A stretch of 64,000 nucleotides of DNA from NCBI GenBank assembly GCA_026874595.1, contig CM049317.1, positions 66,070,618 through 66,134,617 on the forward strand, written 5' to 3'. Below are positions 38,625 to 45,653 of the stretch, one piece after another. The first letter of the stretch is position 1, and each line of letters begins with the position of its first letter. The position numbers and the translations under genes are program-made. The notes beneath the pieces were generated by a model that was given only the letters and a program-made list of their open reading frames with translations, was not told where the DNA came from and searched no databases. The stretch comes from Sipunculus nudus (Eukaryota; Annelida; Sipuncula; Golfingiida; Sipunculidae).

Positions 38625-41280
38625 TTAGCTCAGCTGACTATAAGTCATCTGAGCTATAGTCGTGGTCCATTGTCAGTCAGTCCGTCCGTCCGTTCGTCCA
38701 GATGTCCGTCCGTAAGACTGGCACGTTTCGACACCATTGGACCTACAAATCTGAAATTTGCCATACAGTTAGATGTCCCCAAAATCTCTTACCATGCTGA
38801 AAATTTGGTCAATAGGACTTAATTCCTTCAAAATATTGACAAAAAACTTCATTTTTCCATTAAAAACCCATTGTTCCACTGTAAGACTGCCCAATATCAA
38901 AACCACTCATCTGGTTTTCTTCATATTTACCATTAATATTCCTCTATATAGTTCCTATGTACTTGCCAGAAATTTAGTCAGTATTATTTAATTTAAAAAA
39001 GTTATGGGCCCAAACATAATGGACTTTGTAAAAAAATCAGGAAAGATATTTGGTCTTTTAAGACCAAAAGTGTTAAAGGTAGGGACTTTTTTTCAGTAAT
39101 ACAACTTTAATTGATCAAAATTTAATTGTATACCAAAAATTAGATCAAAATCTGTTAATTTTTTTAAATGTTGTCAAAAATATAAAATTGGTACCTTAAA
39201 TTTTGCCCAAGTTTGACCATGGCACGTTTTTTTCCTGTAAGTACTGTGGATTTAATTTTCTCAGCATGTTTTTGTTAGCATTTTGTCTGTTAAAACCAAA
39301 AATTTTAAACCAGTTGATCAAAAACTAGATTTTATTCAAGTTATCAAGCACCATGTGACATCAAGTTTACATCAAGCTAGTGTTATGCAGTTTGCTAGAG
39401 CTCAGCTCCCCAGCTTCAGCTCTAAGTTCCTTAAATTAGCATACAGTTAGATGTCTCCAAAATCCCCTACCATGCCAAGAATTTGATCACTAGGACTAAA
39501 TTCCTTCAAAATATTAATGAAAAACTTCATTTTTCCATTAAAAACCCATTGTTCCACTGTAAGACTGCCTAATATCAAAACCACTGATCTGACTTTGATC
39601 ATATATAATATACATATTTTTCTATACATTCGCTATGCACATGCCAGAAATGATGTCAGTATTGCGTGATTGTTTAAAGTTATGGGCCCAAACATAATGC
39701 ACTTTTTAAAAAATCAAGAAATATATTTACCCCCTTAACAAGAGGATTGCTGAAGCTAGAGATTTTTTTGCCAGGGATGTAACATTATTTAATCAAGATT
39801 CAATTGAATACCAAAAATTAGTTCTGAATTTTTCAAATTTTATAAGTTATTAGTATAAATATAAAATTAGTACCTTAAATTTTGCCCAACTTTGACCATG
39901 GCACGTTTGTTTCCTGAGAGCACTGTTGATATAATTTTCATATTATGCACACATAAGGATTTCATCTTTGTAGTTTAGAAAGCTGAAAGAAATTGGCCAA
40001 ATAATGTAGCTTTTATTAATGTTTTTATGAGACCATGTCAGATCCAGGCTTAATCCAGCCCCTCTTCAGTCACCTGTATGTTGACCTTGTTGACCTTTCA
40101 TCAGATTATGCATGCTCGAGCGAAGCATACACTGGGGCAGCCAGGCAGCTAATGCCCAGCCACAGTTGATCCAGGTGTCCAACCCAACTCATCTAGTAGT
40201 TGTTTTGAAAAACAACATAACAATAAACAATAAATTAATAATTTTGTATTGGTTTTTTTTATAACAAATTAAAGAAAAATTTATAGAAAAGGAATTTGTT
40301 AGTTGATGAGTAACAGAAAATTAACTTGCAGTTACTGATGATGTAAGAATCTTGTATGGATGGATAGAATGTCAATGTCAATGTTATTCCAAATAACACC
40401 ATGCAGTCACCTATGGTATTTTTCAGTGAAATTTTAATGATAAAAAAATAATCAATTATTCATTACTAATCACTAGGGATCATATGAAGGAAATTAATGA
40501 TAGACAAAGATGCAGTTGATAATATTAATCTAGATTCCTACTGTGTCTAGTGTGTAGATTGATGTGAACGTAGTCCAAAGTGAATATATTACATTTATTT
40601 TTTTTAACATAAAAGCTATAAAACCAGGTATTTATGATCATTATTTCAGTTTGTGAATTTTGTATATTCTGGATTCTCAACATCATTGTTTGGCTAAAAC
40701 TGAATAAATACTAGACATGGTGCGAATGCTTTGCAAATGTATTTGAATACGAATATGAATATGTACTGCATTAAAAAATTTAATTGCATAAGAATGGGAA
40801 TTCATGTAAAAATGAAAGTATTTGAATACCAGTGCAGATACTTTCAAAATGTATTCATGAATGCATTCATGAATATATTCTATAATATTATTTCAATAAT
40901 CATTTCAGTTATATTTTATTTTAAAAAATCATATGATTTTCTCCTTATTTTTTTTTTAAATAAAAATTATATTGGCACAATATTTGTTATGAAATTTTAA
41001 TAAATAGTTCAACTCTTTTATTATATGTGCTGCTTATAAGTTGTATGGCCAAGTCAAAATCTGTGTGACAATAGCACTCCATTTGTTAATAAAATAAATG
41101 AAATCAATCCTCTGCCCTGTCTCCAAAGATACTATCAAAATCATACATAAGCTAAACACCAACAACTCATAATAAAGCTTATATTTTTACCACACAAAAC
41201 AAGCATGTGCCTCCTTCCCAAATCATATTTTTTATATCATATATAACAGCTGAGCGCCGTGACCCATGGGTCCCTTGTTT
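38625..41280 (+). mobile_element. HINE-like element, copy A (about 2.66 kb)
   Basis: The 5' end has the hairpin at 38627-38655 (arms AGCTCAGCTGAC and GTCATCTGAGCT) and a CCGT-rich tract. Two diverged copies of an internal module follow, about 680 bp apart (landmark ACAGTTAGATGT at 38765 and 39443). The 3' end carries CAGCTGAGC (41247-41255), the inverse of the 5' GCTCAGCTG (38628-38636). Then come the palindrome GACCCATGGGTC (41261-41272) and CCTTGTTT. It encodes no protein. Subterminal inverted repeats, a 3' palindrome and T-rich insertion sites are described hallmarks of Helentron-associated non-autonomous elements; assignment to that class is inference. Confidence 0.75.
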
Positions 41281-41698: not shown

Positions 41699-42404
41699 TA
41701 TATGTCAAGGCCCAGATTGCGATCTGGACGGATCTTAGATCTGTCCAGTCCAAATTGCGATCGCAGTTCAGGCCGGCCCAAACTGGGATCGCAATCCAGG
41801 CTGGCCAGATCTTAGATCTGTCCAGCCTATATTGCAATCGCAGTTTAGTCCGGCCCAGATTGCGATCTTGTCTTTCTTGCTTCAGGATCGCAATCTGGAC
41901 TGGACAGATCTAAGATCTGTCCAGTCGAGATTGCGATCCTAAACTTGACCAGCCCATATTGCGATCTATGCGATCCAAGTGTTTCAGCTTGTTAATTTAT
42001 AGTTATTTAAAAATTTAAAAAAGTAAAATATGTCAAAATTTTAAAATTTTACTCAGACAAGTACTGATTAAATATGTCAATATGTTTCACTAATAATATT
42101 AAGACTCGTGGCTGTATCAGCTGTCACAAGACTATGTAAATATTCAAAATCTGTATAGCTGGTTCCTCAATTTATGTTAATAAAATTAAACTTGCCCATC
42201 TCTAGTTTTCTCCTTGTACAATTTATAGGGTATTCTTATGCTTGAGTTATTTTTTATTCTTATAATGGTTTCATAGCTGAGATTTCTTTTAGATTTTTTT
42301 TAACATTTTTTAAAATAAAAATATTTAAATATGAAAAAAAATCAGATCTTAGACAAGTTCTCATTATGATTTCTCTAATGTTGAATATTGTCATAAGACT
42401 TTTG

Positions 42405-43260
42405 CTATGTCTAGTGCTTAGATTGATGTAAAAGTAGTCCAAAGTGAATATAATAGTTTTATGTTTAAATATAAATTAAAGCCATAAAACCAGGTACTTA
42501 TGATCATTATGTTCATACTTATGATCAATTTGTGAAATTTGTAAATTCTGGATTCTCAAGAACTTTGTTTTGCTGAAACTGAATAAATACCAGACATGAT
42601 AAGAATACTTTGCAAATATATTTGAATGCGAATATGAATATATGTACTCCATAATTTCATGCATAAAAGTAGGAATACAGGTATAAATGAAAGTATTTGA
42701 ATACAAATGCAAATACTTTCAAAATGTAATCATGAATGTATTCATGAATATATTCTATATTATTTTAATAATCATTTATTTCAATTATATTATTAAAAGA
42801 TCTTTTCATATGATGCTGTTATTATTTTTAATTTAAATTATATTTGACTCAATATTTGTTATTAATTTATAATAAATAGTTATATTATTTAAGTTTTATT
42901 CTTGGGTAGGAATAACCAGTAATTTTTAAATAAAAGTTCTCATTTGTAAAAATCAGAATTACCATGACTGATAATGGACAGGTTTTTTTTTCAAATAATT
43001 CTGCTGCAATGTAGATAAAGTTATATGGCCAAGTCAAAACCTATGTGAAAACAGCACACCATTCCAACTGTATATAATATAAATGACATCAATCCTCTTC
43101 CCTGTCTCCAAGGATATTATCATAATCTTACATAACTTGAGTTAAACACCATCAGTTCATAATGCAGCTTATATTACCACACAAAACCTGCACTTGCCTA
43201 CCTCCTCTTTCAAATCATATTTTGTGAGCATATAAAACCCATGGGTTCTTTTTTCAACAA
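42405..43260 (+). mobile_element. relic of a HINE-like 3' region inside the foldback
   Basis: This is a diverged direct copy of 40,540-41,280. Shared landmarks in order are GTCTAGTG..TAGATTGATGT, AGTCCAAAGTGAATAT, CTGTCTCCAA and TTACCACACAAAAC. It ends in a damaged 3' palindrome, ACCCATGGGT, near 43,240. The offset from copy A is about 1.86 kb at the left. Confidence 0.65.
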
Positions 43261-43289
43261 CCATGCAATACTAAATGAGTTGGTGATAC

Positions 43290-43410
43290 ATCCCATGTTT
43301 CACTCCTGTGATATGAAGGAGTGAAAATTGCCTTTCTGTATTATAATTGTATTTATTATGGGAGAATGGTACAATGCAATACCAAATGTTTCACTCCTGT
43401 GATAGTAAAA
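43290..43410. repeat. short stem and its partial direct copy
   Basis: TTTCACTCC and GGAGTGAAA form a perfect 9-bp stem at about 43298-43327. A second TTTCACTCCTGTGATA lies just before the right foldback arm at about 43389. Confidence 0.5.
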
Positions 43411-43706
43411 GCATGGATTGCAATATGGGCCAGTCAAGTTTAGGATTGCAATCTCGGCTGGACTGATCTTAGATCTGTCCAGACCAGATTGCAATCCTGA
43501 AGCAAGAAAGACAGGATCGCAGTCTGGGCCGGACTAAACTGCGATCGCAGTCTAGGCTGGACAGATCTAAGATCTGGCCAGCCTGGATTGCGATCGCAGT
43601 TTGGGCCGGCCTGAACTGCGATCGCAATTTGGGCTGGACAGATCTAAGATCCGTCCAGATCGCGATCTGGGCCTTGACATATATATTAACTCTAGTTAAT
43701 TTTTGC

Positions 43707-45653
43707 AAAAAAAGGTTTGGTTCTTGGGCACTTATTTTCAGAAATCAGTGCATGCAGGTGGTTTTTTTTAGCTCAGCTGACTGTAAATCATCTGAGCTAT
43801 AGAGATCACTCTTTGTCCGTCGGCCGTCTGGCCATCCAGCCGTCTGTCCGTTAACAAGCACAAATCATAACCACTGGACCTGGAATCTTCTTACTTTAGA
43901 TCCAGAGAGGTCCATGAAAAATCTCCTTGGAAACCTGGAATTAGGTCTCTCTTACCCATATTCTTCAAGCTATGGGGCTCCGAAGTACTCCCCCCCCCCC
44001 CCCCCCCCCCAGAATAAAAAAAAATTTCATACAAAAGCTCAAATATCTGAACAACTAATGCATTGATCACCATGATTTTTTGCATGGAAATTGATCATGG
44101 AGTGTTCCATCAGTTTCTGCAGACTGGTGGTGCCACCTGTATTTAATCCATTTTTTTACGATTTTTTTTCTCTATTTTTTATACCTCAAAAGATGCTGTC
44201 ATCTCTTAACAGGGCACAAATCTTAACCCCTGGACCTGGAATCTTCTCACTTTACATCCAGAGAGGTCCATGAAAAGTCTTCTTGGAAACCTGGAATTAG
44301 GTCTCTGTTACAATGTTACCCAATTTCTTAAAGCTATAGGGCACCGAAGTACCCTCAAGAACAATGAAAAGTTTGATACAAAAGCTCAAATATCTGAACA
44401 ACTAATGCATTAATCACCATGATTCTTTGCATGGATATTGATCATGGAGTGTTCCATCAGTTTCTGCAGACTGGTGGTGCCACCTGTATATTTTCGATTT
44501 TTAAGGATTTTTTTCTCTTTTTTTGAGACCTCAAAAGATGCCGTCATCTGTTAGTGTTAACAGGGCACAAATCGTAATGACTAGACCTAGAATCTTCTCA
44601 CTTTACATCCAGAGAGATCCATGAAAAATCTCCTTGGAAACCTGGAATTAGGTCTCTGTTACCCATATTTTTTAAGCTATGGGGCTCCGAAGTACCCCCC
44701 CCAGAATAATGAAAAATTTGATACAAAAGCTCAAGTATCTGCATAACTAATGCATTGATCACCATGATTCTTTGCATGGATATTAATCCTGGAGTGTTTC
44801 ATCAGTTTCTGCAGACTAGTGGTGCCATCTGTAATTTTTTAATTTTCTCGATTTTTTTTCTTTATTTTTGAGACCTTAAAAGATGCTGTCATCTGTTAAT
44901 AGGGCACAAATCGTAATGACTAGACCTAGAATCTTCTTTCTTGACATGTTGGGAGGCCCATGAAAAGTCTCCTTGGAAACCTGAAATTAGGTCTCTGTCA
45001 CCCATATTGTCCGAGCTATGGGGCTCGGAAGTACCCCCCCCCCCCCCCCAGAATAATTGAAAATTTGATACCAAAGTAGGGCACAAATCATAACCATGGG
45101 ACCCAGAATCTTCTAACTTTATATCCTGAGAGTTCCTCAATAGTTTCCCTAGAAATCTGAAATTGGGTTACAGTGACCTATATTCTCAGAGTTTTGGGGT
45201 ATGTTTGAGCACCCCAGAAATATTATGCAAAATACACACAAATTGTCAGATTCCTCATGAAAGGCTGGTTGGATTGTCATCAAATTTGTTGTGCTTATGG
45301 GACTTGATGAACTTAAGCTAATATGCATGAACAATGATGCCACCTATCTTAATTGTCTGTGCAAGGATATATTATCAACATGTCAGTTGGCTGAGCGTCA
45401 TGACCCATGGGTCACTTCTTTATTACCTTTTTTTGTATGTTAGGATTAAAATGTCATATGATCAGGGAAAAGCATGATAGTAACATAATTTTTTTCTAAA
45501 CAGACAAAAGCACTACATAACAAAGGAAAACTTATAAAATTTGTATTATTTTGTCTTTTTGAAAGATGAAAATCAAAATAAAATTTTTTGATGCGGGTGG
45601 TAAAAATTGACACGGGTGGTTCCTGAGAACCATACCTTATATTTTTTTGGCCT
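43707..45653 (+). mobile_element. composite: HINE-like copy B with its host-repeat flanks
   Basis: Copy B proper spans about 43769-45422: a 5' hairpin at 43770-43798, a damaged subterminal repeat near 45384-45395, and a perfect 14-bp palindrome TGACCCATGGGTCA (45401-45414). Its left flank (43707-43768) and right flank (45433-45653) match the flanks of copy D. The outermost flank sequences are themselves related in inverted orientation (GCAAAAAAAG..TGGTTCT on the left, complement GGCCAAAAAAA..TGGTTCTCAGG on the right). Copy B therefore sits in, or travels with, an outer inverted-repeat element. Confidence 0.65.
43851..45420 (+). repeat. tandem array of about 350-bp units inside copy B
   Basis: Units begin with a variant of AGGGCACAAATC at about 43851, 44206, 44557, 44896 and 45076, giving lengths of about 355, 351, 339, 180 (truncated) and 345 bp. 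Each full unit passes through GGAAACCTGGAATTAGGTCT, a C-run before AGAATAA (21 C at 43990-44010 in the first), and CAGTTTCTGCAGACT. One more diverged unit is seen in copy C near 46,630. Confidence 0.85.

Follow-up and report, generated by a model that had tools for sequence, protein, structure and literature searches.

The window, i.e. the whole 64,000-nucleotide stretch of Sipunculus nudus DNA analysed, contains a non-coding foldback transposon that is symmetric at two scales, with palindromes lying inside each of two long inverted arms (Table 1). Both the foldback and its double symmetry had been proposed in a sequence-only reading, and exact self-alignment bears them out: the arms (41699-41971 and 43411-43683) are 273 nt each, 94% complementary without a gap and separated by 1439 nt. 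Once one flanking TA per side is removed, the element extends from 41701 to 43681 and its arms measure about 271 bp. As that reading also described, the arms are GC-rich islands, the 1-kb bins that carry them having GC contents of 0.373 and 0.424 vs 0.226 for the intervening bin. Three palindromes per arm had been reported at a length of 21 bp; the number is right, but the length is 25 bp, with the organization CTGGACAGATCT-N-AGATCTGTCCAG and some copies imperfect. GGCCGG blocks and GCGATCGC are also present in the arms, and a 77-bp period runs across part of each.

Table 1. Features of the foldback element and its insertion site (positions in the window)
Feature	Position	Strand	Basis or remark
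Whole foldback element, family A	41701-43681	.	ends TATGTCAAGG...CCTTGACATA
Left TA target-site duplication	41699-41700	.	empty sites L006 (A) and L054 (B), flanks of 45 copies
Right TA target-site duplication	43682-43683	.	empty sites, copy flanks
Left arm	41701-41971	+	self-alignment, copies elsewhere
Right arm	43411-43681	-	self-alignment, copies elsewhere
17-base tip, left end	41701-41717	+	consensus common to A, B (16/17) and C (17/17)
17-base tip, right end	43665-43681	-	
25-bp palindrome	41724-41748	.	left arm positions 24-48
Block with GCGATCGC-core palindromes (centres 60.5, 88.5) and GGCCGGCC palindrome (centre 74.5)	41749-41800	.	
25-bp palindrome	41801-41825	.	left arm positions 101-125
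25-bp palindrome	41900-41924	.	arm positions 200-224; pairs 13/13 in A, 6/13 kept in B
AT-rich centre, 1.44 kb	41972-43410	.	no long reading frame seen
25-bp palindrome	43458-43482	.	right arm positions 200-224
25-bp palindrome	43557-43581	.	right arm positions 101-125
25-bp palindrome	43634-43658	.	right arm positions 24-48

Stretches of the centre (around element positions 707-1183 and 1320-1540) show 78-80% similarity to a 2.66-kb element, labelled Helentron-like by eye, that lies directly upstream (38625-41280) and matches at 88% an insert found in another foldback copy (L024). This similarity is in direct orientation and gives rise to a spurious "tandem" spacing of 1985 bp. Sequence was probably captured between the foldback and the Helentron-like families, one from the other. 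On the other side, the window holds a tandem array of a 345-bp unit (43850-45076, 3.5 copies, 80% matches) with a poly-C tract near 43990-44010; the array adjoins a Helentron-like end at about 43765-43851.

The element belongs to a dispersed family, here called A. Its exact 26-base end occurs 178 + 182 = 360 times in the 1.43-Gb genome, while the reversed control occurs 0 + 0 times, and the whole element was matched unbroken in 11 of the 20 regions first fetched around arm matches, the other nine being interrupted, truncated or ended by the fetched stretch; these two results exclude chance. Independent insertions of a single-arm repeat, the outcome that the sequence-only reading had named as its own refutation, fail as an explanation, both arms recurring with the same centre in those 11 regions. 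First-look candidates in the genome searches numbered 823 for one arm and 902 for the other, 40 being scored in each case, and the best 40 of the 85 matches listed in each search are 97-100% identical. The search with the centre gave 4542 first-look candidates (40 scored), a larger number that may be due to the Helentron-like element having part of the centre. The list of 26-base ends covers the first 100 of the 360 places, and the copies inspected are a minority of the family. Among them, an arm-only copy of 241 bp with both tips present (L021) probably arose by deletion between palindromic modules. At another locus (L015), family A elements are paired 38 bp apart and the same block is found again 4.8 kb further on, probably as the result of a recent segmental duplication.

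The resemblance of the two arms had been ascribed to a gene-conversion-like homogenisation, which the copies do not support: across 17 elements, left and right arms are on average 92.96% identical within the same element and 92.89% between different elements. Since the two values are nearly equal, the left/right differences were already in the source element, with no general homogenisation thereafter. Left arms are 97.2% alike among themselves and right arms 93.8% (means of the same 17 elements, the latter lowered by arms with deletions, as in L007, L029 being low too). As left arms resemble each other more, 8 of the 17 arm differences in the window are explained as family-wide left/right differences. 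Exchange between arms at two or more of eight diagnostic sites was found in 3 of the 17 elements (L014, L023, L024); L002 and L015 deviate at one site each, which may reflect mutation. The mismatches had further been said to fall largely at CpG. Decay at CpG is indeed strong, with 53 transitions in 1018 CpG cells vs 39 in 3761 other C/G cells, i.e. fivefold, but CpG transitions make up only 5 of the 17 arm differences in the window (contexts read by hand).

Family A has two sister families in the same genome, B and C. Family B was first met as a 370-bp relative with the tip TATGTCGAGGCCCAGATT (L019, 2395-2764) abutting a family A copy, a single TA separating the two elements. The B tip has 233 + 241 occurrences in the genome and the C tip, TATGTCNAGGCCCAGATCCNGATC, has 57 + 73, with a control of 0 for each; B copies and two-ended C copies were chosen by end spacing among the first 100 listed places. 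Nine of the 19 B copies fetched measure 1.96-2.14 kb and the others 0.4-1.3 or 2.6-2.8 kb, with arms of 316-318 bp in 11 of the 19, and blastn of the A element against these 19 copies gave no match at E 1e-8. Family C copies are 0.9-1.3 kb long in eight of nine cases and 3.0 kb in one, and vary in module number; their consensus was built from the 10 of 14 candidate arms that have the same continuation. The 17-base tip is nearly constant (16/17 between A and B, 17/17 between A and C) and insertion at TA is common to the three families. Consensus arms of A and B form a gapless alignment of 267 columns, 59% of them identical; when C is included, the gapless alignment comprises 106 columns. Palindromes are found at matching positions in different letters (cores GCGATCGC, AAAATTTT and CCGATCGG), arm positions 24-48 for instance reading CTGGACGGATCTTAGATCTGTCCAG in A, CTGGCCCAATTTAAAACTGGGCCAG in B and CTGGACCAATCGGCGATTGGTCCAG in C. 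Modules are more alike within than between families, since units 1 and 2 of the same family are identical at 52/60 (A) and 51/60 (B) positions vs 35/60 and 34/60 when A and B are compared at corresponding units.

Outside the TGTC, the left flank reads TATA in 21/21 rows and the right flank in 12/14. A 4-base TATA duplication, prompted by these flanks alone, was ruled out, as the empty site of L006 is 2 bases shorter than this model: the host repeat is found empty elsewhere as CAGGATGTATACGC vs the filled CAGGATGTATA[TATGTC...GACATA]TACGC, and a 2-bp TA duplication therefore follows. A second empty site is provided by a family B element nested within a family C element (L054, 81-2710 and flanks), with the unoccupied site supplied by nine other C copies. 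All nine are uninterrupted at the junction; by hand count seven have the length predicted by a 2-bp TA, L084 being one base longer and L085 shorter. With B sitting inside it, this C copy predates the B insertion. The complete copies listed number 45 (18 from A, 19 from B and 8 from C); TA flanks both ends in 40 of them, including 17/19 in B and 7/8 in C, and the flanks are identical over exactly 2 bases in 17 of the 45; the flank table excludes L087, whose left end was wrongly cut, and takes the right ends of the family A rows L029 and L039 from BLAST coordinates, not at GACATA. The search for further copies and target duplications that the sequence-only reading had called for thus returned 360 exact ends and empty sites consistent with a duplicated 2-bp TA; an element entering between T and A with no duplication would look identical.

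Structurally, the long, internally repetitive inverted arms and the non-coding middle place these elements in the foldback class. A 2-bp TA target duplication defines Tc1/mariner elements and is usual for double-strand cut-and-paste; the empty sites and flanks here fit such a duplication, and the copies and patterns searched linked no transposase to these ends. Several other memberships were rejected. A Mutator/MULE foldback, with 8-10-bp duplications as in Tetris, disagrees with the empty sites of L006 and L054, which fit 2 bp; the P superfamily, to which Galileo belongs, has target duplications of 7-8 bp instead of a 2-bp TA; membership of ATon is contradicted by outer bases that vary, e.g. 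GTA...TAC in L040, L053 and L084; and Helitron/Helentron elements have neither TIRs nor target duplications, whereas inverted arms and a TA duplication are both present here.

A candidate autonomous partner was sought among the copies and in the genome. The longest reading frame is 142 aa in L021-L031, where no transposase was found, 116 aa in the 19 B elements and 97 aa in the nine C elements. Long copies were rejected as autonomous elements, L025 being in reality one element plus a separate end and L022-L024, L026, L027 and L029 being interrupted by other DNA; the inserts of L022-L024 and L029 are Helentron-like by eye. Genome patterns combining the tip with a different continuation matched two places (L038 and L039) and, for the second pattern, none, and a pattern joining the inner arm boundary to a different interior gave 0 matches, all of them relying on "not this base" codes so that each catches part of such copies, a fraction estimated at about 0.2-0.4. 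Neither match is an autonomous copy, as L038 retains only 26 bases of one arm and L039 is without one module. A frame of about 40 aa recurs in family C centres (L079, L080, L085, L087); it ends in LTFRKENEFLSELIKVQVSPDLDSEHAYIPDRMSEIIT-stop in L087, is broken by an insertion in L079, and has diverged copies in L068 and L096 that are alike at the protein level by eye. The 42-aa frame of these centres has no Pfam match, and a pattern search with it gave one match, judged to be due to chance. It may be what is left of the end of a transposase.

The comparison of consensus arms shows how far palindromy is kept while the letters change. At nine centres, 7-10 of the 13 pairs are present in A and in B alike, the mean over 494 centres being 1.4, and the palindrome at centre 212 is mostly lost, with 13/13 pairs in A and only 6/13 in B. 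Six non-overlapping palindromes, picked from the centre scan with centre 212 left out, comprise 56 Watson-Crick pairs in A; from A to B, 28 of these are unchanged, 19 carry changes on both sides but have remained paired, eight have changed on one side, and one has changed on both sides and is unpaired. The 19 paired two-sided changes compare with a shuffled mean of 9.7 (0/20000 shuffles as high), and the same type of change accounts for 7/28 pairs from A to C (6/20000) and 8/31 from B to C (0/20000). In a second layer the counts are 7/26 from A to B (1/20000), and are weak for C, with 2/18 from A to C (1112/20000) and 3/17 from B to C (322/20000). None of these shuffle counts is to be read as a probability, since the centres were picked on the same sequences and there are only three families. 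In an alignment of 36 arms (14 A, 16 B and 6 C; 31 distinct), with G-U counted as pairing, 84.2% of cells in the three main palindromes are paired vs 18.9-49.7% when the partner is slid by 1-3 columns, and 86.8% vs 14.3-53.3% in two further palindromes, an advantage that is partly built in because the structure was drawn from the consensus of these families. Among the 36 pairs of the three main palindromes, 16 have changed on both sides somewhere among the arms. For both sets, the paired cells, the cells with two-sided change and the covariation score each lie above 500/500 shuffles; the number of two-sided pairs (64/500 shuffles as high for the three main palindromes, 466/500 for the two further ones) and the number of pair types (336/500 and 499/500) fall within them.

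Copies compared with the consensus of their own family have accumulated 381 one-sided changes (143 in A, 150 in B, 88 in C) vs nine that are two-sided and paired (2, 3 and 4), in arms hand-picked from the fetched loci (32 A, 38 B, 14 C) and with bases shared where palindromes overlap; a further 16, 3 and 3 changes are two-sided and unpaired. Two-sided changes are rare anyway in copies because divergence is low (3-9%), and their totals of 18, 6 and 7 are not below the independence expectation of 9.6, 3.5 and 5.7 for A, B and C. Paired repair after insertion is therefore infrequent, a slow process being invisible at 3-9% divergence. Because inserted copies decay mostly one-sidedly, it is simplest to suppose that palindromy was for the most part preserved by the lineages that continued to transpose.

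The explanation that we favour, tentatively and with close to an even chance of being right, is that these are non-autonomous cut-and-paste foldbacks of at least three sister families, whose arms are arrays of dimer-binding sites, family-specific in sequence, for a putative transposase supplied in trans. A TA-inserting transposase would mobilise the three or more families; the constant 17-base tip would be the likely cleavage end, and the arm palindromes would most likely be bound by dimers of the transposase or of a partner protein, the arrays loading a multi-subunit complex onto each end. The recognised sequence would drift family by family, the modules of one family changing together, and we propose that palindromy would be kept because both half-sites of a dimer need to match. 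What suggests such arrays is the combination of a constant tip, family-specific arm repeats and palindromic modules, by analogy with the THAP sites of Galileo. Counting against them, no transposase was found in the copies and patterns searched, centre 212 is mostly lost and two shuffle measures are not exceeded. Paired change is also expected if selection acts on shape or if sequence is copied between half-sites. Under selection on shape, hairpins or cruciforms would form at the palindromes when the DNA is single-stranded or supercoiled, and it is this structure that the machinery would read, any pairing letters being sufficient. The pair at columns 57-64 has been rewritten in three ways (A, GC; B, AT; C, CG) and is paired in each, as expected from such a mechanism, and DNA folding of the consensus arms gives z values of -13.1 (A), -13.3 (B) and -7.4 (C, 106 bp) against 100 dinucleotide shuffles, although these scores are a trivial consequence of palindromy. 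We consider it unlikely that shape acts in place of sequence, given that the modules of a family have letters in common that shape does not need (module duplication could cause this), that the 2-base TA duplication is usual for double-strand cut-and-paste, and that centre 212 is mostly lost in B. A more specific proposal, in which the ends are recognised by their palindromic shape and symmetry is selected while the letters are free, allowing sister families to escape cross-mobilisation or host repression, seems to us rather unlikely.

Copying in source elements, by conversion or template switching that transfers a change from one half-site to the other, would yield palindromy without selection and would account jointly for similar modules and paired changes. 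Module loss is seen (in L039, and in C arms that differ in modules), as is the arm exchange in 3 of 17 elements; the preponderance of one-sided changes in inserted copies, however, would confine such copying mainly to source copies or to transposition itself, and on balance it is another unlikely account. A separate origin of the palindromes in each of the three families, by inverted duplication, would fit the core sequence proper to each family, but it is very improbable given a gapless register over 106-267 columns, 57-70% of letters in common in the compared units and coincident centres.

Among known systems, Tc1/mariner elements with subrepeated TIRs resemble the present families in their TA duplication and in the secondary binding sites of their TIRs; they differ in that no DDE transposase is linked to the ends described here and that the arrays here are palindromic. 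Sleeping Beauty and Bari-like elements are mentioned as examples of such Tc1/mariner elements (PMC3688188). In Galileo, a member of the P superfamily in Drosophila, only about 40 bp at the tips are conserved between species, and the TIR repeats contain THAP sites for the transposase; with the G-type domain, binding was weaker for K TIRs and absent for N TIRs, yet the D. ananassae TIR was bound (PMC3688188). Very long, internally repeated TIRs, conservation limited to the tips and family-specific arm sequence are common to both systems (PMC3688188), while the families described here differ by a 2-bp TA duplication, by ends to which no transposase is linked and by palindromic modules whose symmetry largely survives sequence change. 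The string "palindrom" is absent from the main text of the Galileo paper (PMC3688188). The ATons of Aedes aegypti likewise comprise many non-autonomous TIR families, some with subterminal palindromes; terminal bases are common to ATon-I/II, the target is an A/T dinucleotide and no autonomous partner is known (PMC3422177). Their target, however, is AT flanked by a conserved A and T, and ATon-I/II are called short (PMC3422177), whereas in the present families the base outside the TA varies and arms of about 270-317 bp belong to elements of up to about 2 kb. Tetris and Foldback have the same foldback anatomy, with repeats within the TIRs and a non-coding middle, but Tetris has 8-10-bp duplications and a Mutator affiliation suggested by its authors, neither of which applies here (PMC4079207). 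MuTAnT also inserts into TA microsatellites; it is Mutator-like with a putative autonomous copy, whereas the empty sites here are without a long Mutator-type duplication (PMC4486113). In the literature searched, which lay mostly outside subscription journals, we found no description of foldback arms built of palindromes in which paired changes distinguish the families.

With its three sister families, this one genome offers a natural experiment in which the tip has stayed constant, the letters of the arms have been rewritten and most palindromes have remained symmetric through paired changes. This bears on why some DNA transposons have very long, repetitive inverted arms, Galileo being the best tested among the cases compared. 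Paired changes between families, set against one-sided changes within copies, point to the features that moving lineages needed to retain, and hint that symmetry itself is needed for jumping. The question of sequence or shape thereby becomes testable with short synthetic arms.
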